NCBI RefSeq assembly: GCF_014170305.1
Contig: NZ_LZZT01000004.1
Location: forward strand, 1-64,000
DNA: 64,000 nt
Direction: 5' to 3'
Source: Achromobacter sp. UMC71
GTDB taxonomy: Bacteria; Pseudomonadota; Gammaproteobacteria; Burkholderiales; Burkholderiaceae_B
Shown: positions 1 through 62,936 of the stretch, in pieces
How positions within the stretch are numbered: the first letter of the stretch is position 1
Layout of the letters: the number at the start of each line of letters is the position of its first letter
Position numbers and translations under genes: made by a program
The notes under the pieces: generated by a model
The model's database searches: none
The model's input: the letters and a program-made list of their open reading frames with translations, nothing else
Told to the model about the DNA's origin: nothing

Positions 1-449
1 GGGCGCCCACGATTGCGGTCCGGCGCGCGGGCGCCGGACTTCCCCTTCGTCATCTTCGTCCAGGCCTTCGGCCTTCCCTTCAGATTCCCTCGGGCGCATC
101 GAGGTTGCCCGCCGCCACGAAGCCCTGCACGACGGGCTACGCGTGTCTCGGTTCGTTGCGCAGCTAGACCTGTGGTCAGGGCATGAAACCTGCAGGGCCA
201 GTCAGCACCACGAATGCCAAACGCGGCCGCCCGCGCGGCCGCGGCTTGGCGGCCCTGCAGGTTTCATGCCCTGACCACAGGTCTAGCTGCGCAACGAACC
301 GAGACACGCGTAGCCCGTCGTGCAGGGCTTCGTGGCGGCGGGCAACCTCGATGCGCCCGAGGGAATCTGAAGGGAAGGCCGAAGGCCTGGACGAAGATGA
401 CGAAGGGGAAGTCCGGCGCCCGCGCGCCGGACCGCAATCGTGGGCGCCC
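1..449. repeat. 199-bp perfect inverted repeat, 51-base spacer
   Basis: Arms 1..199 and 251..449 are reverse complements with no mismatch found by eye. The spacer 200..250 contains a further palindrome at 216..250. Each arm carries a copy of the structured element described at 313..476, so this is a head-to-head pair of that element. The left arm starts at base 1, so its outer end lies outside the window. The open frames across it are Arg/Pro/Ala-rich shadows and I support no protein here. Confidence 0.9.
216..250. repeat. 35-bp GC-rich palindromic module, also at 40791
   Basis: The segment begins GCCAAACGCGG and ends GCGGCTTGGC, and is nearly self-complementary. The same 35 bases recur at 40791..40825, again upstream of a copy of the structured repeat, so it appears to be an optional upstream part of that element. 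Confidence 0.75.
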
Positions 450-476
450 GCCGCCACGAAGCCCTGCACGACGGGC
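313..476 (+). repeat. structured intergenic repeat, copy A
   Basis: Outer arms 313..343 and 446..476 are 31-bp perfect reverse complements. Between them is a conserved core: block ATGCGCCCGAGGGAAT (351..366), a small hairpin (376..380 with 384..388, loop GAA), the segment GATGACGAAGGGG, a 9-bp hairpin (411..419 with 424..432), then CCGCAATCGT. The same core occurs near 40.9 kb and 62.8 kb and, decayed, near 51.9 kb, but with different arm sequences. A second copy in reverse orientation lies in 1..199. Function is unknown. Confidence 0.8.
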
Positions 477-571
477 GACCTACGAAGACCAGACCGACGC
501 ACGAAAATCAAACCAATGCAAAGAAACCAACTCACCCCCCGAAGCCCAATTCACCAAATCCAGCGAAACAA

Positions 572-1399
572 CTACCGCGAATAAGCCGAAAACTTGGACT
601 TGGAAATAGAAGTCGCCGCCACCTGCACATGTTGCGCCAATTCAGCCTCAACACGCGCCACCGTCCATCGCGTCGTCGGCACAGAAATATTGATCGCCGC
701 CACCGCCAACCCCCGATGGTCAATCACCGGCGCCGCCACCGAAATATCCCCCAGCACCGTTTCGTTCACGATGATGGCGTAACCCTTCTCTGCCACACGC
801 TGCGCGCGTTCCAGCAGCTTATCGGGGTTCACTTCCGTATAGGGCGTGATCGGGTCCAGGCGGGTTTGCGACAGGATTTCGCGGCGCTGGTCGTCCGACA
901 GGCGCGACAGGATTGCCGTGCCCGATGCCGTGAAATACGCCGGCAGGCGGCTGCCTACCGCGATGTCCACATTGACCAGGTGATGGCCCGGAAAGCGGGC
1001 CACGAACACAATCTCGTGGCCGTCCAGTTCTTGCAGATTCGTCGTTTCGCCCAGCGTGCGGCTGATGTCCAGCAGATACGGCGATGCCTTGTCGATCAGC
1101 TCGTTCGCGCGCACATAGTTGTACGAGAACTGCAGCACCTTCGGCGTCAGGCCGTAATTGCGCGTGTCCGGAATGCGGCGCAGATAGCCCAGCGTTTCCA
1201 GCGTATAGACCAGGCGTTGCGTCGCGCTGCGGTCCAAGCCCGAGGCGCGGGCAATGTCGGCCAGCGTCATGTGGCGCTTCGGGCCGTCGAAGGCATGCAG
1301 CACCTGGAAGGCTTTTTCGGTCGAGCCTACAAATAGCGAAGACCGGGTCTCGGTCGCCGCCTGCGTCTTGTCCGTATCGTCGGGCTTGCTTTTGGGCAC
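572..1399 (-). CDS. IclR-family transcriptional regulator
   Basis: This is a DNA-binding repressor or activator of the IclR type with an N-terminal winged helix (S-T-E-K-A-F-Q-V-L and the helix ALADIARASGLDRSATQRLV-like segment, cited only in part: ADIARASGLDRSATQR) followed by an effector-binding domain containing VGSRLPAYFTASGTAIL and IVNETVLGDISVAAPV, both typical of the family. About 275 residues from the GTG at 1399; a longer GTG start at 1486 is open but has no visible ribosome site. The neighbour on the same strand is a PhyH-family dioxygenase; a functional link is only inferred. The ligand is unknown. Confidence 0.85.
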   Translation of the reverse strand: MPKSKPDDTDKTQAATETRSSLFVGSTEKAFQVLHAFDGPKRHMTLADIARASGLDRSATQRLVYTLETLGYLRRIPDTRNYGLTPKVLQFSYNYVRANELIDKASPYLLDISRTLGETTNLQELDGHEIVFVARFPGHHLVNVDIAVGSRLPAYFTASGTAILSRLSDDQRREILSQTRLDPITPYTEVNPDKLLERAQRVAEKGYAIIVNETVLGDISVAAPVIDHRGLAVAAINISVPTTRWTVARVEAELAQHVQVAATSISKSKFSAYSR

Positions 1400-1490
1400 A
1401 GGAAACAGCCTATTGAATGAAGGAGCGTGCGCGCAGATTGGGGGCGCGGTGCCGTCTTGCCGGGGGCAATCGCGCGTATCGCACACTATT

Positions 1491-1507
1491 TAATTGTAAT
1501 TCAATTA
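1491..1507. promoter_or_regulatory. AT-rich dyad upstream of the IclR gene
   Basis: TAATTG (1491..1496) and CAATTA (1502..1507) form a perfect dyad with a 5-base centre in an AT-rich stretch between the IclR gene and the PhyH gene. It sits where an autoregulatory operator and promoter would be expected. This is inferred from position and symmetry only. Confidence 0.35.
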
Positions 1508-1647
1508 TTAATAGCAAATTCCAATTACCTGATCGTCCTGGCAGAGGCGCGCCTCCTCTTGATCCGACCCGCATGGCTGCCGCCCTGCAATCCCTCGCCC
1601 GTTGGCGGAGCCGAATTGCAAGCGCGCCGGCAGTACCCCCGTCTGTC

Positions 1648-2415
1648 CTACCCCGCCAACGGCACGCCCGGCTGACTCGCCGAGCGCGTGCCCGGCAGCG
1701 GATGGCACGACTGCGGATGGTAGGTATGCACCACCGAGAGCTTCACCCGATCGCTGCGGTTGCCTTGGGCCGCATGTAGCGTGCGACAGTGGAAGAACAC
1801 CACGTCGCCGGCTTGCAGTTCAGGACAGACCGCGCGCGCGATCCAGTCCTGGTTTTCAGGGGCGTCTTCGCGGAAGAATTTCCTGTCGTCGAATTGCTGC
1901 GGCTGGAACGCCGCGGCGTGCGAACCCGGGATGAAAGACAGGCCGCCGTTCTCGCGCATCTCGGGGCCCAGGGCCAGCCAACAGGACACCAGGTCCGTGT
2001 CGGAAAACGACCAGTAGCGGATGTCCTGATGCCAGCCCGTCAGGCTGCCGTAGGCCGGATGCTTCGTCATTACGCAGTTATGGTGCACCGTGGACAGCAC
2101 CGGGGCTTCGCCGAAATAACGCGCCAGCGACTGGCCGATGCGCGCATCGGTGGCCCATTGGGCGAACAGCGGATCGCGGGCATAGGCGTTGAGCAAGCGC
2201 CGCACCGTCAGGCCGCCTTCGGCCGCGCGGGACTCGGGGGCGCCCGGATAGCGCAGATCCGCTTCGTATTCGATGGGCGCGACATGGTCGTGCAAATGGC
2301 GTTCGGCCAAGGCGCGCAGCGCCTGGACCTGGCCGGCGTCCACCAACTGGCGCGCCACGACAAAGCCCTGCTGGCGCAGGACCGCTAACTCTTCATCTTG
2401 CAGTGACCCGGACAT
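1648..2415 (-). CDS. phytanoyl-CoA dioxygenase (PhyH) family protein
   Basis: Probable Fe(II)/2-oxoglutarate-dependent oxygenase of about 255 residues. The metal-binding facial triad is visible: HxD in GWHQDIRYW near residue 128 and the distal His in FFHCRTLHAAQGNRS, with the following Arg positioned to bind 2-oxoglutarate. LSFIPGSH before it is also typical. The start at 2415 (MSGSLQ) is preferred over 2448 because GAGG lies six bases upstream of it. It is read in the same direction as the IclR gene upstream of it, with about 250 bases between. The substrate cannot be read from sequence; PhyH relatives hydroxylate acyl-CoAs, ectoine and other small molecules. Confidence 0.8.
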   Translation of the reverse strand: MSGSLQDEELAVLRQQGFVVARQLVDAGQVQALRALAERHLHDHVAPIEYEADLRYPGAPESRAAEGGLTVRRLLNAYARDPLFAQWATDARIGQSLARYFGEAPVLSTVHHNCVMTKHPAYGSLTGWHQDIRYWSFSDTDLVSCWLALGPEMRENGGLSFIPGSHAAAFQPQQFDDRKFFREDAPENQDWIARAVCPELQAGDVVFFHCRTLHAAQGNRSDRVKLSVVHTYHPQSCHPLPGTRSASQPGVPLAG

Positions 2416-2655
2416 CTCGATCCTCACACCCCGCGGCGTAAGCTGCAAAGCGTCTGCGCACAGGGCAGGCGCGTGCCGGGCAAGGCGCCGGCGAGCGCGG
2501 GGAGAGCTAGATTACCAAATGTCCGGGCCGGACCGTTATCGGAAATCCGGCCGCAATCCTTGCGGGAATGCGGCCGGCGGCGCCTGGGCCTATCGACGGT
2601 CAAATGCGTCTTGCATCGGCGAGCCGATGCGCGGCCGAACGCACTCAGGTTGACG

Positions 2656-3765
2656 TCAGCCAGCCGGCGTCTTGTCCGGCAATTCGGCGGCTCGCAAGCG
2701 GGCCGTGTCGCGCTCGACTTCCTCGTGGTGCACCCACTCGCGCCATACCGCCACCAGCAGCGCCATCAGCACCGGACCCACGAACAGGCCCACGAGGCCC
2801 ATGGTCTTGACGCCGCCCACCAGGCCGAAGAACGTCGGCAGGAACGGCAGCTTGACCGGGCCGCCCACCAGGCGCGGACGCAATGTCTTGTCGACGATGA
2901 ACAGCTCGACGCTGCCCCACACCATCAGGGCGATGCCCGCCACGACATGGCCCGAGCCCACCAGGTACAGCGAGACCAGCGTGAACGACAGCGGCGCGCC
3001 GCCGGGGATCAGCGCCATGAAGCCGGTGACCACGCCCAGCAGCACCGGCGACGGCACGCCCGCCACCCAGTACGCGACGCCCAGCACCAGGCCCTCGCCC
3101 AGCGCGATCAGGCCCATACCGGTGACGGTGGAATTGATGGTCGCCGGCACCACGCGCGAAAAACGCTGCCAACGCGCGGGCAGGATGCGTTCGCCCAGCA
3201 CGTCCAATTGGGCCACCATGCGCACGCCGTCCTTGTAGACGAAGAACAGCGTGATCAGCATGAACAATACCGTCAGCAGCAACTGGAACACGTTGCCCGT
3301 GGCGGCCAGCACCATGCGGTAGATGTTGCCCAGGTGTTCGCCGCTGACGGCTTCGACCAGCGCGCCCAGCGCGTGGGGCTGGCCGATATAGGCTTCCCAG
3401 TACTCGCCCAGGCGGTCGCCCACCACGGGCATCGAGGTGATCCACGCGGGCACGGCCACGCCATGCCGGTTGGCCGCGATGGCCCAGGCGAAGAACGTGC
3501 TGGCTTCCTTGATGGCGTAGGACAAGGCCAGCGACAGCGGCACGATCAGCACCACGATGACGACCAGCAACGCCAGCGAGGCGGCCAGCATCGTACGGCC
3601 GCCGCAGCGATCGACCAGGCGGCGGTACAGGGGCCAGCTGGCCAGGCCGATGATCAGCGCGGCCAGGGCGGGCACCAGGAAACCACTCAGGAAATACACG
3701 CCCGCCAGCAGGACGAGCAGCAAAAGCCAACGGGCGATCAGGTAAGCGGGAAGTACAGGCTGCAT
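2656..3765 (-). CDS. AI-2E family transporter (YdiK/PerM-like membrane protein)
   Basis: A 369-residue integral membrane protein of the AI-2E transporter family (PF01594 type). Two hydrophobic helices lie near the N-terminus (RWLLLLVLLAGVYFLSGF region), a third at about 60-80, an amphipathic middle section, and a C-terminal cluster of helices including the family-typical GxxxFxxLIPGGAP segment (MALIPGGAP) and the loop DKTLRPRLVGG. The length is normal for the family. Members have been proposed to export autoinducer-2 or act as sodium/proton antiporters; the substrate here is unknown. It lies downstream of the LysR gene on the same strand, 178 bases away, with a hairpin between, so co-transcription is doubtful. 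Confidence 0.85.
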   Translation of the reverse strand: MQPVLPAYLIARWLLLLVLLAGVYFLSGFLVPALAALIIGLASWPLYRRLVDRCGGRTMLAASLALLVVIVVLIVPLSLALSYAIKEASTFFAWAIAANRHGVAVPAWITSMPVVGDRLGEYWEAYIGQPHALGALVEAVSGEHLGNIYRMVLAATGNVFQLLLTVLFMLITLFFVYKDGVRMVAQLDVLGERILPARWQRFSRVVPATINSTVTGMGLIALGEGLVLGVAYWVAGVPSPVLLGVVTGFMALIPGGAPLSFTLVSLYLVGSGHVVAGIALMVWGSVELFIVDKTLRPRLVGGPVKLPFLPTFFGLVGGVKTMGLVGLFVGPVLMALLVAVWREWVHHEEVERDTARLRAAELPDKTPAG

Positions 3766-3901
3766 AGAGATCGACAGTGAATGCGTTTAGGCTTTGACTG
3801 TCGGACTATACATACGTTTCGCCAAATACGAGGGACGCAATCCCTGTATTTACTACGGGGTTTCCCGCGTTTTCGAGGATTTTCCCAGCCACTTGCCGGC
3901 A

Positions 3902-3923
3902 CGGCGGGCCCAGGGGCCCGCCG
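3902..3923. terminator. hairpin downstream of the LysR gene
   Basis: A 9-bp perfect GC stem (3902..3910 with 3915..3923) and tetraloop CAGG lies just past the stop codon of the minus-strand LysR gene. No T-run follows, so it is a weak or Rho-assisted terminator candidate. Confidence 0.45.
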
Positions 3924-3943
3924 CAAGACCGGCGCCAGCGCCA

Positions 3944-5014
3944 TTACAGCGCGTACTCGGCAGCCTCTTCCCGGGCGCTGCGGCGCCGTTGCGGCATTTC
4001 GGGCGCATTGGCGGCCGCCACGCCGGCCACGGCCATCTGCTTGGCCTGGCTGAGGTTGCGCTGCTGGAACACGCCGCAGCTGACGGCGGCCGGATCGGTT
4101 TCGTCGCGGCCGCTGAGCAGCGGGCAACTGGCGAACAGCTCGGCCACCCAGTCGGCGAACGCGCGCACCTTGGGCGACAACTGGCGGCTTTGCGGATACA
4201 GCACCGAGATCGCGGTGGTGCTGGGCTTCCATTGGGGCAACACTTCGATCAGCTCGCCCGATTGCAGGTACGGCAGCGCCATGTAGCGCGGCGTCTGGAT
4301 CAGGCCAAAGCCCTTCAGGCCGCAATCCAGATAGGCGCCGGCTTCGTTCACCGCCACCGTGCCGCGCATGTCCACTTCCTGGTGCTTGCCGTCGATCTTG
4401 AAGTCCCAGGGGCAATTGCGGCCGCTGCGGCTGGAGAAATAGTGCACGGCGTGGTGGTCGCGCAGGTCCTCGATGGTTTGCGGCATGCCGTGGCGCGCCA
4501 CGTAGGTCGGCGACGCGCAGGTCACGGTCTGCAGGGTGCCGATGCGGCGCGCGACCAGGCTGGAGTCTTCCAGGTCGCCGGCGCGGATGACGCAGTCCAC
4601 CGCCTCTTGCACCATATCCACGGGGCGGTCGCCCAGCCCGAGCACCAACTCGACGTCCGGGTACTTGTCGTGAAAATCACACAATGACGGGATTAGAATC
4701 AGCCGGCCGATGCAGGTGGGCACGTCGATGCGCAGCCGCCCCTTCAGACGCAGGGCCGCTTCCTGGAAGCAGGCCTCGGTTTCTTCGACGTCGGCCAGGA
4801 TGCGCACGCAATGCTGGTAATAGCCCGCGCCGTCGGGCGTCAGGCCGATGCGGCGGGTGGTGCGATTGAGCAGACGCACGCCCAACAGGCGTTCGAGATT
4901 CTGGATGATGGTGGTGACGGTGGTGCGCGGAAGCGAGAGGCTGTCGGCCGCCCGGGTGAAGCTATTGGCATCCACGACGCGCACAAACACCTGCATAGCC
5001 TGAAAACGGTCCAT
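3944..5014 (-). CDS. LysR-family regulator, divergent from RND efflux operon
   Basis: LysR-type regulator: N-terminal winged HTH (MDRFQAMQVFVRVVDANSFTRA, cited in part as FVRVVDANSFTRAADSLSL) and a periplasmic-binding-like effector domain. The start at 5014 gives 356 residues; upstream in-frame starts would add a tail without homology. It is longer than the usual 300 because of a roughly 55-residue C-terminal extension rich in Ala, Gln and Arg. It is transcribed away from the efflux genes that start at 5403. In Pseudomonas and Burkholderia the related MexEF-OprN and BpeEF-OprC pumps are controlled by LysR proteins encoded next door (MexT, BpeT), so control of this pump is a reasonable inference. 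Confidence 0.85.
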   Translation of the reverse strand: MDRFQAMQVFVRVVDANSFTRAADSLSLPRTTVTTIIQNLERLLGVRLLNRTTRRIGLTPDGAGYYQHCVRILADVEETEACFQEAALRLKGRLRIDVPTCIGRLILIPSLCDFHDKYPDVELVLGLGDRPVDMVQEAVDCVIRAGDLEDSSLVARRIGTLQTVTCASPTYVARHGMPQTIEDLRDHHAVHYFSSRSGRNCPWDFKIDGKHQEVDMRGTVAVNEAGAYLDCGLKGFGLIQTPRYMALPYLQSGELIEVLPQWKPSTTAISVLYPQSRQLSPKVRAFADWVAELFASCPLLSGRDETDPAAVSCGVFQQRNLSQAKQMAVAGVAAANAPEMPQRRRSAREEAAEYAL

Positions 5015-5402
5015 GGCGACGGTGTCCTTTGGGGCAAGTAGTCGGGGTGTACGGAGCATAACCCGAATCCGCCCTGGATTAGACAAATCTGCCGAACAGT
5101 GTTGCCGAACAACACGTGTTTATCCGCGCCGGCAAAACACTCAGAATTCAACCATCTTGAAGTGCCCGTGCCGCCCGGCGCATCCAAGGGCCTGTCAATC
5201 CTCAGATTCCGATCACGCGAGAGCCCGTCCCCTGAAAGGACCTTCTCAGCCAGGGATACGTAACAGAGTTGCATGCTGCACCGCAGTATGACATCGGTGT
5301 TTCAGGACTGACAGACCCGCCGCGATGCTGCCCCCGCCGCCACCCGCCCCCTCGCGGTCCCGGCAAGCGCACTTCACCCCGACACCACCCTCAAGGAACA
5401 TC
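5015..5402. promoter_or_regulatory. 388-base divergent regulatory region, LysR / efflux operon
   Basis: No gene is supported here. It must hold the promoters of the LysR gene and of the efflux operon. A perfect palindrome AACACGTGTT lies at 5111..5120, inside a less GC-rich patch (5090..5160). AAGGA at 5393..5397 is the ribosome site of the first efflux gene. Confidence 0.5.
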
Positions 5403-6599
5403 ATGGTTTCGCGTAATCGTATTGCTGTGCTCGTCGTTTTCGCGGCCGTCATCGCGGCCGGCGGTAGCTACGCCCTGTTTCGCGCCCCTGCCGGCGCCAA
5501 CGCTGCCCAGGCGCAGGGCGCCCCGGCGGCTCCCCCCGTCGAAGTCGCCGAGGTGGTCAGCAAGACCATCGTCGACTGGCAGCGCTATTCCGGCCGCCTG
5601 GAAGCCATCGACCGCGTGGACATCCGTCCGCTGGTCTCCGGCACCCTGACCGCCGTGCACTTCCAGGACGGCAGCATCGTCAAGAAGGGCGACGTCCTGT
5701 TCACCATCGACCCGCGCCCCTACGCGGCCGAAGTGGACCGCGCCGCCGCCGCCCTGACGGCCGCCAAGGCCCGCGCCTCGTACACGGCCACCGAACTGGC
5801 CCGCGGCCAACGCCTGTTGACCGACAACGCCATCGCCCGCCGCGACTTCGAGGAAAAGCAGAACGCCGCCCGCGAAGCCGCCGCCAACCTGCAAGGCGCG
5901 CAAGCCGCGCTGGACTACGCCAAGCTGAACCTGGGCTACACCCGCATCGAAGCGCCGGTCGCCGGCCGCGTCTCGCGGGCCGAAGTCACGGTTGGCAACG
6001 TGGTCGCCGCCGGCGCCACCTCGGTGCCGCTGACGACCCTGGTGTCGGTGTCCAAGATGTACGCCTCGTTCGACGTCGACGAGCAGACCTTTCTGAAGTA
6101 CGTGAACCCCGCCCGCAATGGCCGTGCCGGCTCGGTGCCGGTCGAGCTGGGCCTGGCCAACGAGGAAGGTTATTCGCGCACCGGCTTCGTGCAATCGGTG
6201 GACAACCGCCTGGACGCCACGTCCGGCACCATCCGCGTGCGGGCCGAATTCGACAACGCCGACGGTTCGCTCCTGCCTGGCCTGTACGCCCGCATCCGCC
6301 TGGGCGGCAGCGACCCGCGCAGCGCCGTGCTGATCGACGAAAAGGCCATCGGCACCGACCAGGACAAGCGCTTTGTGCTGGTGCTGGACGACAAAAACCA
6401 CGCCAACTACCGCCAGGTCAAGCTGGGCGCCAACCAGGAAGGCCTGCGGGTCGTGGATTCCGGCCTGGCCCCTGGCGACCGCATCGTGGTCAACGGCTTG
6501 CAGCGCGTCCGCCCGGGCGACGCCGTGAGCCCGACCGTGGTGCCCATGGTCACGGCCCAGCGCAACCCGGTCAAGACCGCATCGGCTAACGCCAACTAA
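5403..6599 (+). CDS. RND efflux periplasmic adaptor subunit (MexE-like)
   Basis: Membrane-fusion protein that bridges the inner-membrane pump and the outer-membrane channel. 398 residues from the ATG at 5403, which follows AAGGA by six bases. An N-terminal hydrophobic segment (RIAVLVVFAAVIAAGG) serves as signal or anchor. Then come a lipoyl half-motif (VDIRPLVSGTLTAVHFQDG), a coiled-coil hairpin of about residues 100-170 rich in Ala, Arg and Glu, a second lipoyl half (LGYTRIEAPVAGRVSRAEV) and beta-barrel domains. The first gene of the operon: the RND gene follows after 36 bases. The closest recognisable relatives are MexE/BpeE. Confidence 0.9.
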   Translation: MVSRNRIAVLVVFAAVIAAGGSYALFRAPAGANAAQAQGAPAAPPVEVAEVVSKTIVDWQRYSGRLEAIDRVDIRPLVSGTLTAVHFQDGSIVKKGDVLFTIDPRPYAAEVDRAAAALTAAKARASYTATELARGQRLLTDNAIARRDFEEKQNAAREAAANLQGAQAALDYAKLNLGYTRIEAPVAGRVSRAEVTVGNVVAAGATSVPLTTLVSVSKMYASFDVDEQTFLKYVNPARNGRAGSVPVELGLANEEGYSRTGFVQSVDNRLDATSGTIRVRAEFDNADGSLLPGLYARIRLGGSDPRSAVLIDEKAIGTDQDKRFVLVLDDKNHANYRQVKLGANQEGLRVVDSGLAPGDRIVVNGLQRVRPGDAVSPTVVPMVTAQRNPVKTASANAN

Positions 6600-6635
6600 G
6601 CGGCCGGTGACAAGACAAGCAGAACGAGAACGTTC

Positions 6636-9854: not shown

Positions 9855-9875
9855 GCCGGCCTAGAAAAATAGCCA

Positions 9876-9905
9876 GCGCGCCCCGTCCCGAACGGCGGGG
9901 CGCGC
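9876..9905. other. intra-operon hairpin between RND pump and channel genes
   Basis: A 10-bp perfect GC stem (9876..9885 with 9896..9905) with a 10-base loop lies in the 67-base gap between the pump and channel genes. No T-run follows. It could stabilise the upstream message or partly attenuate transcription into the channel gene. Confidence 0.6.
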
Positions 9906-9921
9906 GCCCAAGAGAATCGTC

Positions 9922-40790: not shown

Positions 40791-41062
40791 GCCAAACGCG
40801 GCCGCCCGCGCGGCCGCGGCTTGGCGACCCTGTAGATCCCATTCCCCGAACACGGGTCTGGCAACGCGACGAGTCTCAAAGGACGTAGCCCGTCTGGGCG
40901 GCGGCTTGCGCAGTGGGCAACCTCGATGCGCCCGAGGGAATCTGAAGGCCGTCGCCAAAGGCGACAACGAAGATGACGAGGGGGAAGTCCGGAGCGAACG
41001 CTCCGGACCGCAATCGTGGGCGCCCACTGCGCAAGCCGCCGCCCAGACGGGCGACCTACGAA
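40791..41062 (+). repeat. structured intergenic repeat, copy B
   Basis: Begins with the 35-bp palindrome shared with 216..250 (40791..40825). Outer arms 40888..40918 and 41022..41052 are 31-bp perfect complements whose sequence differs from copy A over most of the length. Core: ATGCGCCCGAGGGAA (40926..40940), hairpin 40951..40956 with 40960..40965, hairpin 40987..40995 with 41000..41008, then CCGCAATCGTGGGCGCCC. Stem bases differ from copy A in a compensated way. It ends GACCTACGAAG as in copy A. It lies downstream of the ilvD terminator. Confidence 0.85.
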
Positions 41063-51904: not shown

Positions 51905-51996
51905 CCTGGGGGGCGGGGGGCGCGCGGGGCGTGTAGGTGCGCCCCGACGGAATCGGAAGGGAAAGCCGACGGCCTGGGCGACGATGAGGACGGGGG
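51905..51996 (+). repeat. structured intergenic repeat, copy C (degenerate)
   Basis: Contains GGGGCGTGTAGGTGCGCC-like (51927..51944), CGGAATCGGAAGG (51948..51960), a remnant first hairpin (AGCCGACGGCCT) and GACGATGAGGACGGGG. This matches the core of copy D closely. The second hairpin is decayed and there is no downstream arm complementary to the G-rich upstream arm, so it appears to be a broken copy. It lies 40 bases after ppc. Confidence 0.6.
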
Positions 51997-52102
51997 ACCG
52001 CCGAGTCAACCGTCCACCAGCCGAACACCAAAAATCCCCAATTTGTCCACCCCCAACAACTTTTAGTACTATCTCCTTCAGAAATTCTATATACGCACAA
52101 AA

Positions 52103-53171: not shown

Positions 53172-53359
53172 CAAGCGCCACAACGCATTACCGAACACCC
53201 ATTACATAAGGCGCGCGGCAACCCGCCAGACGCGCCATCGGGCCACGAGCCCACCCACACAAAGAAACCGATCGTCCCACCCGCCGCGCGCCACCACCTG
53301 GCGCGCAGCGGCGCAAGACACCAGAGCAATACGCCTTACCGGAGTTCGTTGGAGGCTTC

Positions 53360-54700: not shown

Positions 54701-54704
54701 TAGA

Positions 54705-54728
54705 CGCGGCGCCCCGCAGGGCGCCGCG
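54705..54728. other. intra-operon hairpin between AtoE-type and SDR genes
   Basis: A 10-bp perfect stem (54705..54714 with 54719..54728) and tetraloop CGCA, in the 55-base gap between the genes. No T-run follows. Confidence 0.6.
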
Positions 54729-54755
54729 CACCAAAGACTGTAACGGGAAACCGAT

Positions 54756-55484: not shown

Positions 55485-55535
55485 GGCCCCGCCGCCATGC
55501 GCGTCCGCTGCCCCGTCACCCCGCGTTCGCGCCGC

Positions 55536-56318
55536 CTAGCGGCGCAGCAGCGCGTGGTTGATCTGGTCCGCGGCGCGGCGCAGCGGCGGCAGGAAGGCGG
55601 CCAGCATTTCCTCGCGCGAAAAGCGATTGGCGTGGCCGCTGACGTTCATCGCCGCGATCACGCGGCCGCTGCGGTCCACGATAGGCACGGCCACCGATTG
55701 CAGGCCGGGTTCCAGTTCCTGTGCCACGCAGGCGTAGCCGTCGGCGCGCACGCCGGCCAGCAGGCGCTTGAGTTCGGCGATGCCGGTCACGGTGTGCGGG
55801 GTATAGGCCTGGATCTGGCTGCTGGCCAGCACCCGGTCCAGCTCGGCTTCGGGCAGCCCGGCCAGCAGCACCCGGCCCATCGACGTGACCCACGCCGGCA
55901 GCCGGCTGCCCACCGCCAGGTTGATGGTCATGACCTTGTGCGTCGACAGCCGCAGGATGTAGACGATGTCCGCGCCTTCCAGCACCGACACGGAACACGA
56001 CTCGCGCGTCAGTTCGGCCACTTCTTCCATGTAGGGCAGCGCCAGGTTCCACAGCGGCGTGCCCGACAGGTAGGCGTAGCCCAGCTCCAGGATGCGCGGC
56101 GTCAGCGCGAACTTGCGGTCTTCGACCGTGACGTAGCCCAGGTGCTCGAGCGTCAGCAGGATGCGGCGCGCGCCCGCACGGGTCAACCCGGTCACCGCGG
56201 CGACCTCGGACAAGGTCATCTGCGAACGCTGCGGGCCGAATGCCCGGATCACGGACAGCCCCCGCGCAAAGGATTGAACGTAGCTGTCGCTGGGTTGCTG
56301 GGTTTCTTGCTCGGCCAT
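55536..56318 (-). CDS. IclR-family regulator (PcaR/PcaU-like)
   Basis: A 260-residue IclR protein. HTH: TLSEVAAVTGLTRAGARRIL; effector domain with CSVSVLEGADIVYI, LAVGSRLPAWVTSMGRVLLA and VAVPIVDRSGRVIAAMNVS. It matches the PcaR/PcaU/CatR group that controls beta-ketoadipate genes, and it is divergent from pcaI. Two adjacent 15-bp palindromes lie in its promoter region, and a third lies in front of the other operon, so it probably regulates itself and both operons. Confidence 0.9.
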   Translation of the reverse strand: MAEQETQQPSDSYVQSFARGLSVIRAFGPQRSQMTLSEVAAVTGLTRAGARRILLTLEHLGYVTVEDRKFALTPRILELGYAYLSGTPLWNLALPYMEEVAELTRESCSVSVLEGADIVYILRLSTHKVMTINLAVGSRLPAWVTSMGRVLLAGLPEAELDRVLASSQIQAYTPHTVTGIAELKRLLAGVRADGYACVAQELEPGLQSVAVPIVDRSGRVIAAMNVSGHANRFSREEMLAAFLPPLRRAADQINHALLRR

Positions 56319-56421
56319 CCGTCTACCGCAAAAAGAAGCGTTGCCGTTGCCGGCAACCCTGAACCGGGGAGATTGCGCCGCGCCAGCTTGCCTTGACGGT
56401 CGACACTCCCCATGAAACGAT

Positions 56422-56455
56422 GTTCTTCAGAAGAACGAAAGTTCTAATTAAGAAC
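56422..56455. promoter_or_regulatory. tandem IclR operators, IclR / pcaI divergent promoter
   Basis: GTTCTTCAGAAGAAC (56422..56436) is a perfect 15-bp palindrome. GTTCTAATTAAGAAC (56441..56455) is another, four bases away (centre-to-centre 19). The half-site GTTCT with 5-base centre recurs at 52103..52117. They lie 34-67 bases before pcaI and about 104 bases upstream of the IclR start. Confidence 0.75.
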
Positions 56456-56488
56456 AAATTATGACACGCCACCCTATGAGCGAACACC

Positions 56489-57178
56489 ATGATTTCTAAG
56501 CTTGTTGCAAGCGCGGCGGCCGCCCTCGCCGACGTCCCCGACGGCGCCACCGTCATGATCGGCGGCTTCGGCACCGCCGGCCAGCCCATGGAACTGATCG
56601 ACGCCCTGCTCGAACAAGGCGCGAAGGACCTGGTCATCATCAACAACAACGCCGGCAACGGCACCACCGGCCTGGCCGCCCTCCTGGGCGCCAACCGCGT
56701 GCGCAAGATCATCTGCTCGTTCCCGCGCCAAGTGGACTCGCAGATCTTCGACGGCCTGTACCGCAGCGGCAAGATCGAGCTTGAACTGGTGCCCCAAGGC
56801 AACCTGGCCGAGCGCATCCGCGCCGCCGGCGCCGGCATCGGCGCGTTCTTCTCGCCCACCGGCTACGGCACCCCGCTGGCCGACGGCAAGGAAACCCGCG
56901 AAATCAACGGCCGCCAGTACGTGCTGGAATATCCGCTGCATGCCGACTATGCGCTCATCAAGGCCGAGCGCGGCGACCGCTGGGGCAACCTGGTGTACCG
57001 CAAGACGGCCCGCAACTTCGGCCCCATCATGGCCAGCGCCGCGCGCGTGGCCGTGGCCCAAGTGCGTGAAGTCGTCGAACTGGGCACGCTGGACCCGGAA
57101 ACCGTCGTCACCCCCGGCATCTTCGTGCAGCGCGTCGTGCAGATCGACGCCACCCCGGCCGCCAAGGAGCAGCAATGA
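56489..57178 (+). CDS. pcaI: 3-oxoadipate CoA-transferase subunit A (or related 3-oxoacid CoA-transferase)
   Basis: A 229-residue family-I CoA-transferase alpha subunit. Starts with DGATVMIGGFGTAGQPMELI, then IINNNAGNGTTGLAALL and VLEYPLHADYALIKAERGDR (in part). With PcaJ it transfers CoA from succinyl-CoA to 3-oxoadipate. The neighbouring catC and pcaD genes favour that role over acetoacetate activation. It overlaps pcaJ by ATGA. Confidence 0.88.
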   Translation: MISKLVASAAAALADVPDGATVMIGGFGTAGQPMELIDALLEQGAKDLVIINNNAGNGTTGLAALLGANRVRKIICSFPRQVDSQIFDGLYRSGKIELELVPQGNLAERIRAAGAGIGAFFSPTGYGTPLADGKETREINGRQYVLEYPLHADYALIKAERGDRWGNLVYRKTARNFGPIMASAARVAVAQVREVVELGTLDPETVVTPGIFVQRVVQIDATPAAKEQQ

Positions 57179-57819
57179 GCACCAAACTGACCCGCGACCA
57201 GATCGCCGCCCGCGTCGCCCAGGACATCCCTGAAGGCGCCTACGTCAACCTCGGCATCGGCCTGCCCACCCTGGTGGCCAATCATCTGCCGGCCGACCGC
57301 GAAGTCATCCTGCACACCGAGAACGGCATGCTGGGCATGGGCCCGGCCCCGGCCAAGGGCGAAGAAGACTACGACCTGATCAACGCCGGCAAGCAGCCCG
57401 TCACCGAACTGCCCGGCTGCTCGTTCTTCCATCACGCCGATTCGTTCGCCATGATGCGCGGCGGCCACCTGGACATCTGCGTGCTGGGCGCCTTCCAGGT
57501 GTCGCAGCACGGCGACCTGGCCAACTGGCACACCGGCGCGCCCGACGCCATCCCCGCCGTGGGCGGCGCGATGGACCTGGCCATCGGCGCCAAGGACGTG
57601 TTCGTCATGATGGAACTGACGACCCGCGAAGGCCAGAGCAAACTGGTCGAGGCCTGCACCTATCCGCTGACCGGCGTACGCTGCGTGTCGCGCGTGTACA
57701 CCGACGTGGCCGTGTTCGACATCCGCGCCGACGGCGTGACCGTCATCGACATGTTCGGCGACATCACTGCCGACGAGCTGCTGCGCCTGACCGGCCTGCC
57801 GCTGAAGTTTTCACAATAA
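57175..57819 (+). CDS. pcaJ: 3-oxoadipate CoA-transferase subunit B
   Basis: A 214-residue beta subunit. It carries the catalytic Glu in LHTENGMLGMGP, preceded by VNLGIGLPTLVANHL, and the conserved AFQVSQHGDLANW and GGAMDLAIGAKDVFVMM. It pairs with PcaI as an (alpha-beta) enzyme. The catC gene follows after 13 bases with GGAG in between. Confidence 0.9.
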   Translation: MSTKLTRDQIAARVAQDIPEGAYVNLGIGLPTLVANHLPADREVILHTENGMLGMGPAPAKGEEDYDLINAGKQPVTELPGCSFFHHADSFAMMRGGHLDICVLGAFQVSQHGDLANWHTGAPDAIPAVGGAMDLAIGAKDVFVMMELTTREGQSKLVEACTYPLTGVRCVSRVYTDVAVFDIRADGVTVIDMFGDITADELLRLTGLPLKFSQ

Positions 57820-57832
57820 CTGGAGATAAGCA

Positions 57833-58108
57833 ATGCTGTTCATGGTTCAAATGCAAGTCAACCTGCCCGTCGACATGCCCGCCGAGCGCGCCGACAAACT
57901 CAAGGCCGACGAAAAGGCCCTGGCCCAGCAACTGCAACGCGACGGCAAATGGAAGAGCCTGTGGCGCGTGGTCGGCCGCTACGCCAACGTCAGCATCTTC
58001 GACGTCGAAAGCAATGACGAACTGCACACGCTGCTGTCGTCGCTGCCGCTGTTCCCGTACATGGACATCAACGTCACGGCGCTGGCGCGCCACCCTTCCG
58101 CGATCTGA
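57833..58108 (+). CDS. catC: muconolactone delta-isomerase
   Basis: A 91-residue isomerase of the catechol branch of the beta-ketoadipate pathway (muconolactone to 3-oxoadipate enol-lactone). Starts MLFMVQMQVNLPVDMP, has the Glu/Lys helix RADKLKADEKALAQQLQ and LWRVVGRYANVSIFDVES, and ends FPYMDINVTALARHPSA. Full length. No catA or catB is present in the window. Confidence 0.93.
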   Translation: MLFMVQMQVNLPVDMPAERADKLKADEKALAQQLQRDGKWKSLWRVVGRYANVSIFDVESNDELHTLLSSLPLFPYMDINVTALARHPSAI

Positions 58109-58120
58109 TCGGAGCAGGCC

Positions 58121-58417
58121 ATGCCCTACATCATCGAAACCTTCGACAAGCCCGGCCACCAGGCCGTGCGCCAGCAGCACCGCGCCGCGCACCTGCAATA
58201 CCTGGACGCCAACAAGCACCTGCTGCTGGCCTGCGGCGCCAAGCTGCAGGACGACGGCACGGATGCGGGCGGCGGCCTGTACATCGTCGACCTGGACACG
58301 CGCGAGGCCGCGCAGCAGTTCATCGACGCCGACCCGTTCGCCCACGCCCAGCTGTTCGACCGCGTGACCATCACCCGCTGGCGCAAAGCCTACGTCGACG
58401 GCACCTGCCATCTGTAA
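58121..58417 (+). CDS. YciI-like protein
   Basis: A 98-residue protein of the YciI family (ferredoxin-like fold). Catalytic-looking His/Asp motif RQQHRAAHLQYLDAN, then GGGLYIVDLDTREAAQQFIDADPFAHA. YciI relatives include small dehydrochlorinase- or isomerase-like enzymes. Between catC and pcaD it may act as an accessory isomerase or lactone-handling enzyme; there is no direct evidence. Confidence 0.8.
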   Translation: MPYIIETFDKPGHQAVRQQHRAAHLQYLDANKHLLLACGAKLQDDGTDAGGGLYIVDLDTREAAQQFIDADPFAHAQLFDRVTITRWRKAYVDGTCHL

Positions 58418-58424
58418 TCGCGAC

Positions 58425-58446
58425 GCGGCCGCCTCCGGGCGGCCGC
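58425..58446. other. intra-operon hairpin before pcaD
   Basis: A 9-bp perfect stem GCGGCCGCC with GGCGGCCGC (58425..58433, 58438..58446), loop TCCG, in the 52-base gap upstream of pcaD. Confidence 0.6.
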
Positions 58447-58469
58447 AGCTACACCCCGAGGATTTCCCC

Positions 58470-59249
58470 ATGTCTTACGCCGATCTCAGCCAGGCACGGC
58501 TGTTCTACGTCATCGATGGTCCTGCCGACGCCCCGGTGCTGGTGCTATCCAACTCGCTCGGCACCTGCGCCGACATGTGGGCGCGCCAGATTCCCGAGCT
58601 GACCCGGCACTTCCGCGTGCTGCGCTACGACACTCGCGGCCATGGCAAATCCTCGGTGCCCGACGGCGAATACACCTTCGCGCAGCTGGGCAACGACGTC
58701 GCCGAACTGCTGGCGCACCTGAACATCAAGCAAGCACACTTCTGCGGCCTGTCGATGGGCGGCCCCACCGGCCTGTGGCTGGCGCTGAACCGCCCCGAAC
58801 TGATCAACAAGCTGATCCTGTGCAATACCGCCGCGCGCATCGGCTCGGCCGAAGGCTGGAGCACCCGCATCGCTGCCGTGGCCGAACAGACGCTGGAAAA
58901 AATGGCGCCCACGCTGGTCCAGCGCTGGCTGACCGACGACTACCGCGGCGCCGAGCCGGGCCTGACGCAAGTGTTGATCGACATGCTGCGGCGCACGCCC
59001 GACGCCGGCTATTCGGGCAACTGCGCCGCGCTGCGCGACGCCGACTTCCGTGAACAGGTGGCCGCCATCACCACGCCCACCCTGGTCATCAGCAGCACCC
59101 ACGACCTGGCCGCCACGCCCGCCCAGGGCCGCGAACTGGCCGGCGCCATCGCCGGCGCGCAATACCTGGAATTGAATACCTCCCACATCTCGAACTGGGA
59201 GCAACCGGAAGCCTTCACCCGCGCGGTCGTCGACTTCCTGACGGAGTAA
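58470..59249 (+). CDS. pcaD: 3-oxoadipate enol-lactonase
   Basis: A 259-residue alpha/beta hydrolase that opens the enol-lactone to 3-oxoadipate. Nucleophile Ser in HFCGLSMGGPTG, acid Asp in ISSTHDLAATPA, His in TSHISNWEQPEAF. Oxyanion region LVLSNSLGTCADMW and RYDTRGHGKSS are typical of PcaD. It connects the catC product to PcaIJ, so the operon order mirrors the pathway. Confidence 0.93.
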   Translation: MSYADLSQARLFYVIDGPADAPVLVLSNSLGTCADMWARQIPELTRHFRVLRYDTRGHGKSSVPDGEYTFAQLGNDVAELLAHLNIKQAHFCGLSMGGPTGLWLALNRPELINKLILCNTAARIGSAEGWSTRIAAVAEQTLEKMAPTLVQRWLTDDYRGAEPGLTQVLIDMLRRTPDAGYSGNCAALRDADFREQVAAITTPTLVISSTHDLAATPAQGRELAGAIAGAQYLELNTSHISNWEQPEAFTRAVVDFLTE

Positions 59250-59254
59250 ACCGC

Positions 59255-60295
59255 ATGCAGCGCTGGACCCACCGGCCCGAGGGCTCCAATTGGGGCGACT
59301 TCGGACCCGACGACCAACTCGGCCGCCTGAACCTCATCACCGAAGAGCAAGTCTTGAAAGGCGCGCGTGAAATCCGCGCCGGCAAGACCTTCTGCCTGTC
59401 CCTGCCCCTGGACCTGCCCGGCGGCAACGTGCTGAACCCGCGCCGCCATCCGCCGCGCTTGAGCCCGACGACGCTGCAGGACACGCCGTACCTGAACTTT
59501 CCCCTGCGCAACGTCAACCCGGATGCGGTGGACGTGCTCAGCGACGACCAGGTGCTGCTGTCCATGCAGTACTCGACCCAGTGGGACGCGCTGGCGCATG
59601 TGGGCGCCCTGTTCGACGCGGACGGCGACGGCAAGCCCGAGCTACGCTACTACAACGGCTTCCAGGCCGGCCTGGACGTGCTGGGTCCGGCCGACGGCGA
59701 CCACACCGGCTGCGGCTGCAACAGCGGCGGCCCCTCGGCCGCGCTGAAGCTGGGCGTCGAAAACCTGGCGCAGAAAGGCATGCAGGGCCGCGGCGTGCTG
59801 GTGGACCTGTTCCGCCACTACGGCCCGGGCCGCACCCTGATCGGCCACGCCGAACTGATGCACGTGCTGGCCACGGACCACATCGAGGTCGAACCCGGCG
59901 ACATGCTGGTGCTACGCACCGGCTACGCCGAAGCGGTTGTGGCCATGAACGGCACGCCCGACGCCCAGGTGCTGCACACCTACGGCGCCGCGCTCGATGG
60001 CACCGACGCCGCGCTGCTGCAGTGGATCACCGACAGCGGCATCGCCGCCATCTGCGCCGACAACTATGCGGTCGAGGCCTATCCTGCCCGCGAAAAGACC
60101 GGCCCGCGCGCCATGCTGCCGCTGCATCACCACTGCCTGTTCAAACTGGGCCTGCCCCTGGCCGAGCTGTGGTACCTGAAAGACCTGGCCGACTGGCTGC
60201 ACGCCAACGGCCGCCATCGCTTCATGCTGACCGCGCCGCCGCTGCGCCTGCCGCACGCCATCGGCTCGCCGGTCACGCCGATCGCCACGGTCTGA
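59255..60295 (+). CDS. cyclase-family metal-dependent hydrolase
   Basis: A 346-residue protein of the cyclase/kynurenine-formamidase-like superfamily (PF04199 type), in the long subgroup. The metal-site region reads STQWDALAHVG where short members have HxGTHxDxPxH. Also VLRTGYAEAVV and a C-terminal LFKLGLPLAELWYLKDLADW (in part). Relatives hydrolyse amide or lactone rings of aromatic metabolites. Only five bases separate it from pcaD, so it may feed an aromatic or heterocyclic intermediate into the route (inference). Confidence 0.85.
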   Translation: MQRWTHRPEGSNWGDFGPDDQLGRLNLITEEQVLKGAREIRAGKTFCLSLPLDLPGGNVLNPRRHPPRLSPTTLQDTPYLNFPLRNVNPDAVDVLSDDQVLLSMQYSTQWDALAHVGALFDADGDGKPELRYYNGFQAGLDVLGPADGDHTGCGCNSGGPSAALKLGVENLAQKGMQGRGVLVDLFRHYGPGRTLIGHAELMHVLATDHIEVEPGDMLVLRTGYAEAVVAMNGTPDAQVLHTYGAALDGTDAALLQWITDSGIAAICADNYAVEAYPAREKTGPRAMLPLHHHCLFKLGLPLAELWYLKDLADWLHANGRHRFMLTAPPLRLPHAIGSPVTPIATV

Positions 60296-60305
60296 CGGAA
60301 CAAAG

Positions 60306-60341
60306 AAAAAGCGCCGGTCCGTTCAACGGCCGGCGCTTTTT
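60306..60341. terminator. bidirectional terminator after pca operon
   Basis: A 12-bp stem AAAAAGCGCCGG with CCGGCGCTTTTT (60306..60317, 60330..60341) and 12-base loop, with T-runs on both strands. It separates the pca operon from convergent psiF. Confidence 0.92.
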
Positions 60342-60355
60342 GCATGAAGCGGCGT

Positions 60356-60715
60356 TCAGCCCTTCAGGCAAGTGCTCATGAAAGTCTTGCGCTTGTCGCC
60401 GGTCAGCTTCTGTTCGCCGGCCTTGGCGTTGCAGTCCTTCATCTTCTGCTGCTGCGGCGTCAGCTGCTTGGCCGGCGCGGGCGCTTCGCCCTTCAGGCAC
60501 GAGCTCATGTACGTCTTGCGGTCATCGCCCTTCTTGCCTTCCGCCGACTTGTTGCAATCGGCCATGCGCTGCTGCTGCGCCGTGGGCGTCTTGGCGGGCG
60601 CTGGCGTCGCGGCGGGAGCGGGCGGGGTGGCAGCGGGCGTCTGCGCATAGGCGGCGCCCAGGAAGCTGGCGGACAACACAATGGCCGAAGCCAACTGGCT
60701 AGTACGGGAAAGCAT
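60356..60715 (-). CDS. psiF: PsiF-repeat periplasmic protein
   Basis: A 119-residue secreted protein. Signal peptide MLSRTSQLASAIVLSASFLG with cleavage after AYA. An Ala/Pro linker is followed by two tandem PsiF repeats of about 35 residues, each with QQQ.M.(D)CN and a terminal M(S)SCLKG motif holding two Cys. E. coli psiF is phosphate-starvation-inducible; the function is unknown. The ATG at 60715 follows AAGGGAGG. Confidence 0.9.
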   Translation of the reverse strand: MLSRTSQLASAIVLSASFLGAAYAQTPAATPPAPAATPAPAKTPTAQQQRMADCNKSAEGKKGDDRKTYMSSCLKGEAPAPAKQLTPQQQKMKDCNAKAGEQKLTGDKRKTFMSTCLKG

Positions 60716-61203
60716 GAGTTCCTCCCTTGAGCGCCCGCCTACGCCATGCACGCGCACAGCCGGGCCGCACGTTCCGCCGGCCAAGGTGCCGGCCCGGTCA
60801 TCATCGGACAAACCGGACCGCTCCGCAAGCGCCCAAAGGACAACAAATGCTAACGCCGCCGCCATCATTCAGCTTGCGGAAAGGCACTGGGATCACGCCC
60901 CCGAACCCGCCCGGATCCGTCCGAAAAACGCAACATGACAGGCCAGGAAAGCGGCGCCGATTTCATCGAAAAGTCCCCGAAAATGCGGCCAACAATCCCC
61001 AATTTGGAGACATTCCGATGCACTTGTGGCATCCGCAGATGAATCTGCGGCGATCCCGCGCAACCTGTTACCCATTCATCCTTTCGGCCCGTTGTGCCGG
61101 GCTGCCGAAAGGTGTGAGATAGGCGCATATCCGCGGCAACACCCGTAAAAGACCGCTGCCCAGGCAGCCCGGCCCCGCCGCGCCGGCCTCACAGGAGACC
61201 GCC
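60716..61203. other. 488-base gene-poor stretch between psiF and FxLYD gene
   Basis: It should contain the divergent promoters. A small hairpin (CCGCAGA-TGAA-TCTGCGG, about 61036..61053) is visible. A 34-codon frame begins at ATG 61018 after TTTGGAGAC but has no recognisable features. No Pho box was identified by eye in front of psiF. Confidence 0.4.
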
Positions 61204-61542
61204 ATGAAAACCGCCCTAGCCTTCGCCGCCCTGCTTGCCGGCCTGTCCGGCGCCGCCAGCGCCCAGAGCCTGTCCTACGGCGTCACCCTGGGCAACATCC
61301 AGGCCATCCGCGACACCAACGAGAACATCTCCACCATCACCGGTTCGCTCGCCAACCAATCCACCCGCGCCGTCAGCAACGTCATGCTCACCTTCGTCCT
61401 GTACGACGACCAAGGCCGCGAAGTCGGCCGCGTCCGCGACGACGACATCGGCCCCCTGGCCCCCGGCCAGATCAAAATGATCCGCGCCATCACCCCCCTG
61501 CAATTCACCAAGGTCACCGCCCTGGACATCCGTGCAAGGTGA
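61204..61542 (+). CDS. FxLYD domain-containing exported protein
   Basis: A 112-residue protein with a signal peptide (KTALAFAALLAGLSGAASAQ) and one immunoglobulin-like FxLYD domain: ITGSLANQSTRAVSNVMLTF and FVLYDDQGREVG, the motif that names the family. Likely periplasmic. The function is unknown. AGGAGACC precedes the ATG. Confidence 0.85.
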   Translation: MKTALAFAALLAGLSGAASAQSLSYGVTLGNIQAIRDTNENISTITGSLANQSTRAVSNVMLTFVLYDDQGREVGRVRDDDIGPLAPGQIKMIRAITPLQFTKVTALDIRAR

Positions 61543-61568
61543 TGAGGGCCACCAGCTGCGCGCTTGCC

Positions 61569-61604
61569 GCCCCCAAAGGGGGCGCCCCGGCCTTCGGGCG
61601 GCCG
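61569..61604. terminator. tandem small hairpins after FxLYD gene
   Basis: GCCCCC-AAA-GGGGGC (61569..61583) and CGGCC-TTCGGGC-GGCCG (61588..61604) lie just after the stop codon. GC-rich hairpin pairs of this type are common between genes in Burkholderiales. Confidence 0.5.
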
Positions 61605-61710
61605 AGAGGGGGGCTATTCCTGCAAGCAATTAAAAACCCTGGCGGCAATGGGGTTTAGTCAGGCAAGTGTGGGTTCAAGTATGGGAAAATTCGTCATGCC
61701 GACTCGATAG

Positions 61711-61735
61711 AAGGGGCTTCCACACGAAGCCCCTT
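61711..61735. terminator. hairpin upstream of carbonic anhydrase gene
   Basis: A 9-bp perfect stem AAGGGGCTT with AAGCCCCTT and a 7-base loop, 55 bases before the carbonic anhydrase start. It could end upstream transcription or structure the 5' leader. Confidence 0.55.
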
Positions 61736-61790
61736 GTTGCGTCTGCGGCGCGCCAGCACGCCTGGCATCGTTACCAAGGAAGTGAAGATC

Positions 61791-62441
61791 ATGTTTCCCA
61801 AAAGACTCACCGAAGGCTATCAATCGTTTCTCGAAGGCCGTTTCCATTCCGAACGCAGCCGCTACGAAAAACTGGCCGAAACTGGGCAAAGCCCGGAAAT
61901 CCTGATCATCGGCTGCTGCGACTCGCGCGTTTCGCCCGAAGCCATCTTCGACGCCGGCCCCGGCGAGATGTTCGTCGTGCGCAACGTCGCCAACCTCGTC
62001 CCGCCCTGTGACCCGGACTCCGAATCCTCGTACCACGGCACCAGCGCCGCCATCGAATTCGCGGTCAACGGCCTAAACGTCAAACACATCGTCGTCCTCG
62101 GCCACGCCTCCTGCGGCGGCATCCGCGCCTTCTTCGATGACGCCAAGCCCCTCACCAAGGGCGACTTCATCGGCAAATGGATGTCCCAGATCGCCCCCGT
62201 CGCCGACGCCATCGGCCCCGGCACCGACGACCGCGCCGCCAACCTCAAGCGCCTGGAACTCGCCGTCATCGGCCACAGCCTGAACAACCTGATGACCTTC
62301 CCCTCCATCCGCCGCCGCGTGGAAAAGGGCGAACTCGAACTGCACGGCACCTACTTCGGCGTCGCCACCGGCATTCTCTTCCTGCGCGACCCCGCCACCG
62401 GCGATTTCCACCCCTGCCTGGAAACCGGCCTGCCCGCGTAA
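61791..62441 (+). CDS. beta-class carbonic anhydrase
   Basis: A 216-residue zinc enzyme (CO2/bicarbonate interconversion). Zinc ligands: Cys in IGCCDSRVSPE (with the Asp-Arg pair), then His and Cys in VLGHASCGGIRAF. Other landmarks are FVVRNVANLVPP and GTSAAIEFAVNGL. The length is standard. The ATG at 61791 is favoured over an upstream in-frame start at 61734, which would run through the leader hairpin. Confidence 0.93.
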   Translation: MFPKRLTEGYQSFLEGRFHSERSRYEKLAETGQSPEILIIGCCDSRVSPEAIFDAGPGEMFVVRNVANLVPPCDPDSESSYHGTSAAIEFAVNGLNVKHIVVLGHASCGGIRAFFDDAKPLTKGDFIGKWMSQIAPVADAIGPGTDDRAANLKRLELAVIGHSLNNLMTFPSIRRRVEKGELELHGTYFGVATGILFLRDPATGDFHPCLETGLPA

Positions 62442-62499
62442 CACCAGCGCCACCGCAGCAACACGGCGGCCCAGCCGCCCGCCACCGCAAGCGAATGCT

Positions 62500-62526
62500 G
62501 GCGCGCACGCCCCAAGCGTGCGCGCC
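62500..62526. terminator. hairpin downstream of carbonic anhydrase
   Basis: An 11-bp perfect GC stem (62500..62510 with 62516..62526) with loop CCCAA, 60 bases after the stop. No T-run. The surrounding 62442..62780 has no supportable gene. Confidence 0.5.
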
Positions 62527-62783
62527 CACCGCCACAAGCCATCAACGCACGTCGCCCAAGCAGCCCGCAAATTCACCGAGCCGCCCGCGACGCAATGCGC
62601 AACCCCCGCAAGCGCGCAGCGTCATCCCATGACGCAAGACACCGCGTAAGCCGAGCAAGGCCGCCCGCGCGGCCGGCACGAGGCGGGCCCCGCAAACTCC
62701 TCCAAACCCAAACCGACCTTGGCCAAAACGCCAAGCACACCGCTCGCCCCAGAGGCCGCCAGTAAGGCACATCAGGAGCGCGC

Positions 62784-62936
62784 GACGGGGCAGGCGGGTG
62801 AGGGCGGGGCGTGTAGATGCGCCCGAGGGAATCGGAAGGCAGGCGCCGAAGGCGACAACGACGATGACGAAGGGGCAGTCCGGAGCGAAGGCTCCGGACC
62901 GCAATCGTAGCCCCGCCCTCACCCGCCTGCCCCGTC
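62784..62936 (+). repeat. structured intergenic repeat, copy D
   Basis: Arms 62784..62810 and 62910..62936 are 27-bp perfect complements, unrelated in sequence to the arms of copies A and B. Core: ATGCGCCCGAGGGAAT (62817..62832), a first hairpin (62844..62847 with 62851..62854, loop GAA), GATGACGAAGGGG, second hairpin 62878..62886 with 62891..62899, then CCGCAATCGT. No 35-bp palindromic module precedes it. It lies between the carbonic anhydrase and GntR genes. Confidence 0.85.

Follow-up and report, generated by a model that had tools for sequence, protein, structure and literature searches.

REPs are palindromes of 20–40 bp that carry GTAG or CGTC tags and are in part associated with RAYT genes (PMC3733652), and REPs, BIMEs and REPINs are intergenic, lie mostly downstream of genes, and occur in outward or inward pairs and in up to many copies (PMC3733652, PMC3116915). 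The MITE-like repeats ERIC, NEMIS and bcr1 are dispersed, structured, gene-adjacent and noncoding (PMC3110155, PMC3733652), and the copies of a MITE have terminal inverted repeats in common. BRE is GC-rich and intergenic, measures ~90 bp, is often tandem, occurs in related hosts and also in Comamonadaceae, and is transcribed at one B. pertussis locus (PMC3110155). Bor-1 and Bor-2 of Bordetella bronchiseptica are intergenic and structured, Bor-2 being represented by a 167-bp model with 17 sequences, 6 of them complete (PMC2267715), and the Burkholderiales-1 motif is tabulated without an Rfam number (PMC2864571). In the template-switch model, multi-base compensatory changes in a hairpin arise when DNA is copied from the other arm, a case that rests mainly on rRNA and microRNA histories (PMC8794818). 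Two-sided change in a stem is the usual proof of RNA structure, and template switching can produce such change without selection.

A dispersed element of Achromobacter sp. UMC71, found in a 64,000-nucleotide window (the whole stretch of DNA that was analysed), resembles REP, BIME and REPIN sequences in location, pairing and copy number, and the MITE-like repeats in being dispersed, structured, gene-adjacent and noncoding. Its unit of ~270–310 nt is, however, far from the size of a REP; only in class 1 do many copies have GTAG at the 5′ foot, the feet of classes 2 and 3 being different; and its arms differ from copy to copy, unlike the shared termini of MITEs. Because size, tag, RAYT association and shared-repeat features all fail, we do not file it as a REP or a MITE; the REP/BIME-like affinity suggested in the initial annotation holds for location and outward-facing pairs, but not for size, tag or RAYT association. 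Set beside BRE by description, the element is similar in its related hosts, intergenic position and GC-rich sequence and dissimilar in length, arrangement and occurrence in Comamonadaceae; by description it is also like Bor-1 and Bor-2 in being intergenic and structured. In Rfam 15, no family reached its gathering score in the 64-kb window, six further loci searched by E-value gave chance-level matches only, and no earlier description of the element was found in the open-access papers searched. The initial remark that no named element fits holds for Rfam 15 and those papers, and a relation to BRE, Bor-1, Bor-2 or Burkholderiales-1 is possible. A retron-type RNA was also considered and rejected, as an RT-3 match in one locus (L005) had an E of 1.6 and five further loci gave none at E up to 10.

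Three intact copies and one decayed copy lie on the + strand of the window, with A, B and D at the positions first assigned to them. In copy A, 31-bp arms at 313..343 and 446..476 enclose a core at 350..441 (match to covariance model R1 at 338–451, 125.1 bits), and the apical part of an upstream hairpin (hairpin 2), with stems on both sides, lies at 225..240. The corresponding features of copy B are the hairpin 2 apical part at 40800..40815, 31-bp arms at 40888..40918 and 41022..41052, and a core at 40925..41017 (R1 match 40913–41027, 127.2 bits). Copy D has its hairpin 2 apical part at 62659..62674, a linker motif, GCCAAGCA, at 62730..62737, 33-bp arms at 62778..62810 and 62910..62942, and a core at 62816..62908 (R1 match 62804–62918, 114.6 bits). 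Arms were placed by sequence reading and folding, and the linker motif by reading, with family evidence for hairpin 2 of copy A and motif counts for the linker. The arms, first described as perfect, are so in A and B, and those of D contain one mismatch. Copy C (51924..52021) is without paired arms; its match to R1 (47.3 bits, E 2.5e-8) and its reading bear out the earlier view that it is a decayed copy. The piece originally described is real, but it is only the 3′ part of the unit. On the − strand, a reverse-complement partner of copy A occupies 1..199 (R1 match 1–110, 112.8 bits), and positions 1–199 are the exact reverse complement of 251–449 around a 51-nt centre. Since base 1 of the window is the contig end, this 199-bp palindrome may be either a real pair or an assembly fold-back. 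Copy A faces an IclR-type gene; copy B faces an IlvD/Edd-type gene, behind which stands a LysR-type gene; and copy D sits between converging carbonic anhydrase and GntR-type genes.

BLAST with the core gave 39 matches in the UMC71 genome. R1 was built from the 47 cores of alignment A1, two of the 49 cores originally selected (L001 and that of L008 at 2279) having been left out because their arms are broken. The covariance-model search that the initial annotation had proposed yielded 45 matches in this genome at E 0.01 or better, of which 34 are full-length (≥92 bits), well beyond the loci first noted; the other 11 comprise pieces at contig ends, decayed copies (C among them) and three weak matches that overlie better ones on the opposite strand. 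By R1 coordinates, eight outward-facing pairs stand less than 0.7 kb apart; both members reach at least 92 bits in seven of them, one pair is cut by a contig end, and no inward or tandem pair within the same distance was found among matches of at least 92 bits. The pairs at C34:31642 and C60:77804 (L032 and L033) are near-identical, with a common left flank and different right flanks, a likeness that may reflect duplication, recombination or assembly error. Copies or pieces also stand within ~0.6 kb of ten contig ends of the draft assembly G000 (C4, C7, C14, C16, C17, C43, C47, C54, C55 and C59), so that the repeat probably breaks the assembly.

Across 43 Achromobacter genomes, R1 detected 3–78 matches in each of 42, G045 being the single negative. 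It also matched 17 of the 121 genomes in a sample of the family, in 9 of its 43 genera, and the copies in other genera are diverged. When 399 genomes of the order were searched with model R2, the three that matched all belonged to this family; the lack of matches outside the family in this low-sensitivity search is weak evidence of absence, because scoring covered only nine candidates in each genome. In named genomes a pattern scan returned at least 116 stretches, and among the 80 matches listed all 80 are from Achromobacter. The flank of site B has its nearest named-genome counterpart at 97.7% identity, plasmids gave no match to copy B, and viral contigs gave no exact match to one core pattern.

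The full unit consists of hairpin 2, a linker, and a long stem with arms of 31–34 bp that closes a branched core of ~90–110 nt. A text pattern gave 156 matches, 32 from own-genome loci, with L013 at 1477 representing a false second start; because the pattern fixes some core columns, only varying core columns were counted as evidence. Four of the 156 lack flank, and in 83 of the 152 measurable copies the arms match fully over 28 columns. Among distinct arm pairs that match in 22 or more of the 28 columns (nine rows below 22, including L013 at 1477, being dropped), 65 of 125 are perfect and 136 mismatches occur in 3500 cells, so the complementarity claimed for the arms holds in most columns without always being perfect. 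The median agreement between the left arms of two copies is 46%, in keeping with the observation that arm sequence differs between loci, and comparing a left arm with the right arm of another copy gives the same median. The arms are therefore not shared ancestral sequence, an origin that the initial annotation had recognized as damaging to its interpretation. Among distinct pairs in the five largest offset classes, the typical arm length is 31 bp (41 of 53), 33–34 bp (28 of 31), 34 bp (7 of 14), 32 bp (8 of 8) and 34 bp (6 of 8), respectively.

Hairpin 2 is present in 135 of the 149 copies whose upstream sequence is long enough; its apex is near-constant, its stems are free, and it takes 100 distinct forms. 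Its apex pattern occurs in 7 of 18 copies examined from other genera; on reading, nine of the remaining eleven have a hairpin of different apex in the same position, and no hairpin was read there in G015 and G002. In 31 other-genus copies from seven genomes, GCAAGATCTT with up to two mismatches occurs in 25 (1.0 expected), always at 110–114 before the core, and GCCAAGCA at one mismatch in 20 (4.9 expected), at 72–75 in 18 cases. Within Achromobacter, GCCAAGCA is present in 45 of 54 class 2, 6 of 20 class 3 and 12 of 70 class 1 copies (9.1, 3.5 and 11.5 expected), and GCAAGATCTT in 18, 6 and 2 of these, respectively. Class 1 linkers carry a motif near GGTCTAGCAGCGC in 57 of 70 copies (3.0 expected), and a fourth linker motif, GCCCCAGCG, is little above chance. 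Linear motifs at fixed spacing characterize class 2 and most other-genus copies. In G047 (L168, 4098–4431), hairpin 2 forms part of a 167-nt sequence repeated in tandem within the spacer of one pair, where an IS with its own inverted repeats is also inserted.

Covariation supports the core fold. For 30 cores of several genera, a 15-pair fold has 99.3% of cells paired and 71 two-sided cells, as opposed to 1–12 with slid partners, and for 47 Achromobacter cores a 34-pair fold has 98.1% of cells paired and 122 two-sided cells, as opposed to 2–21, the structures in both cases being derived from the tested alignments themselves, which favours them. The number of pair types across genera shows no excess over shuffles, and G.U is nearly absent from the Achromobacter core. 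One pair, formed by columns 25–67 and added after inspection of the alignment, sits by itself in an internal loop and is G-C in 39, C-G in 7 and other in 1 of the 47 Achromobacter cores. An isolated pair of this kind could not easily be made by palindrome copying.

Arm evolution was followed in 248 pairs of orthologous copies identified by similarity of the 3′ flank. The arms are identical in 10 pairs, 70–99% identical in 51, below 70% in 122, and of a different inner class in 65, and arm identity declines as flank identity declines. Two-sided arm changes in the 51 pairs, which are not independent of one another, comprise 175 transversions and 73 transitions; the transversion share of 71% is a raw figure, uncorrected for composition, from GC-rich arms. 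The transition fraction in the flanks of the same pairs is 0.48. Single-sided differences amount to 25 G.U on the + strand, 4 G.U on the − strand, 39 others and 12 mismatched in both. Once gaps are allowed, the arms are at least 75% alike in 44 pairs, and nine of these have an internal indel, present in both arms in 9 of 9; two of the nine rows, both for L130 at a single site, reflect artefacts at the arm ends, and the other seven represent five sites. An RNA stem that evolved by stepwise compensation through G.U intermediates, with no copying, could account for the core covariation and for residual mismatches that are biased toward G.U, but the predominance of transversions and the occurrence of indels in both arms make such a history highly unlikely.

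If the arms changed by replacement of whole units from paralogues, donors should be available. The L009 arm variant occurs in one element of the UMC71 genome and in G147 (two matches on separate contigs, which may belong to a single split element), and no donor was found elsewhere in the 43 genomes with one mismatch allowed. The L115 variant occurs in one element in G131 only, with no donor elsewhere in an exact search of the 43 genomes. On these two variants, replacement by paralogues was rejected as the sole cause of arm change. Rapid change at orthologous sites is seen in cores and linkers as well (for L059/L130 the flank is 97.7% and the core 85% identical), so exchange between copies does occur, and this may contribute to the arms too. 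From these comparisons we infer arm-to-arm copying by template switching, with selection on pairing and length. The explanation is that of template-switch hairpin maintenance, in which change in both arms follows from copying one; unlike the cases on which that account mainly rests (PMC8794818), the present stems measure 31–34 bp and exist in dozens of copies with orthologs.

Mismatches in Achromobacter arms are G.U on the + strand rather than on the reverse strand by 74 to 7, or 70 to 4 when six inner columns are excluded. Thinning gave 45 to 2 and 18 to 0 (the latter on thinning to 65%), and the UMC71 genome alone gave 4 to 1. In other genera the count is 13 to 11, a single invariant internal-loop position supplying seven of the eleven, and hairpin 2 leans in the opposite direction (5 versus 27) with few independent events. 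The + strand excess in Achromobacter arms suggests an RNA, although it is possible that strand-specific C-to-T mutation could yield an equal bias. The counts for hairpin 2, for other genera and for UMC71 alone, like the near absence of G.U from the core, weigh against an RNA.

Neighbouring genes were called over 150 copies with a home-made gene caller, in which GC3 weighting countered the long open frames that extend directly from the element. Of 138 genes on the 3′ side, 102 were called convergent and 36 point away; the stop codon of the convergent gene lies 54–149 bp past the core in 80 of 102 cases. On the 5′ side, 94 of 120 genes were called co-directional. The flank gene of site B is present in all 43 genomes, and among 30 loci read at this site, 14 have an intact unit beside the gene, 4 have remnants, 10 show none on reading and 2 are at a contig edge. 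The unit at the L093 site is intact in A. deleyi and reduced to hairpin 2 and the 3′ foot in the UMC71 genome. Element sites are therefore polymorphic, and relics exist.

Such occupied and empty sites would be expected of a non-autonomous mobile DNA of MITE- or REP-like type, in which the + strand hairpin serves as a single-stranded transposition substrate and is selected as DNA. The abundance of the element in 42 of 43 genomes, its outward pairs and a core almost without G.U fit the same description, but comparison of occupied and empty sites at site B and the L093 site gave no clean insertion junction from which a target-site duplication could be read, and no partner protein emerged. PF01797 (RAYT/Y1) is present in 10 of 43 genomes and is missing from many high-copy genomes, among them G132, G134 and G152 (44, 49 and 46 R1 matches), so that a RAYT/Y1 transposase is not supported as the mobilizer. 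An autonomous element inside the wide G047 pairs was rejected, as the gene found there belongs to an IS with its own inverted repeats (IS type judged by reading). Mobility of this kind appears improbable.

The initial annotation had left a choice between selected structure and a copying mechanism that creates palindromes. Both gain support, and the interpretation is borne out in part: copying is supported by the transversion-rich two-sided changes, the both-arm indels and the missing donors of two variants, and selection by the isolated covarying core pair, the class-typical arm lengths and the G.U bias of Achromobacter arms. Copying could in principle suffice, with palindromes that correct themselves during replication in inert units on which nothing is selected; two-sided changes and indels require no selection, and relics without a core are tolerated. 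This we consider unlikely in view of pair 25–67, the linker motifs at fixed spacing across genera, the arm lengths and the strand bias.

We judge the chances to be about even that the elements are a family of non-coding intergenic units in Achromobacter and related genera whose stems are copied arm-to-arm, are under selection and act as RNA. On this combined model of copying and selection, palindrome-templated replication (template switching or quasi-palindrome correction) would transfer a mutation or indel from one arm to its partner, so that pairing would survive without sequence conservation. Selection, acting on the + strand of the long stem, would remove units with broken pairing or length, and the selected form would most likely be RNA. 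Because the element is usually co-directional with the 5′ gene and points at the stop codon of the 3′ gene, the RNA would most likely act near the ends of genes and could there terminate or process read-through and antisense RNA, a function proposed from position and strand alone and at odds with the 36 genes on the 3′ side that point away. Somewhat more tentatively, the units may constitute a new, large structured ncRNA family, with up to dozens of copies in a genome, whose long stems are continuously rewritten arm-to-arm under a length constraint; if so, linker motifs and the junction fold persist across genera in which stem sequences differ. Since each genome offers dozens of long stems, in 42 of the 43 species genomes and with orthologous sites, the rates of copying and selection could be separated. 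The family places a structured sequence near many gene 3′ ends and is a warning for covariation-based RNA discovery.

Two further intergenic sequences were noted beside these loci. In one species, a run of CAG-type triplet repeats in the 3′ flank separates the L194 element from the gene terminator. L204 and L206, upstream of the IlvD-type gene, contain a short palindrome, GGTGTCAGACACC or near forms of it, which is intergenic and occurs in several species.
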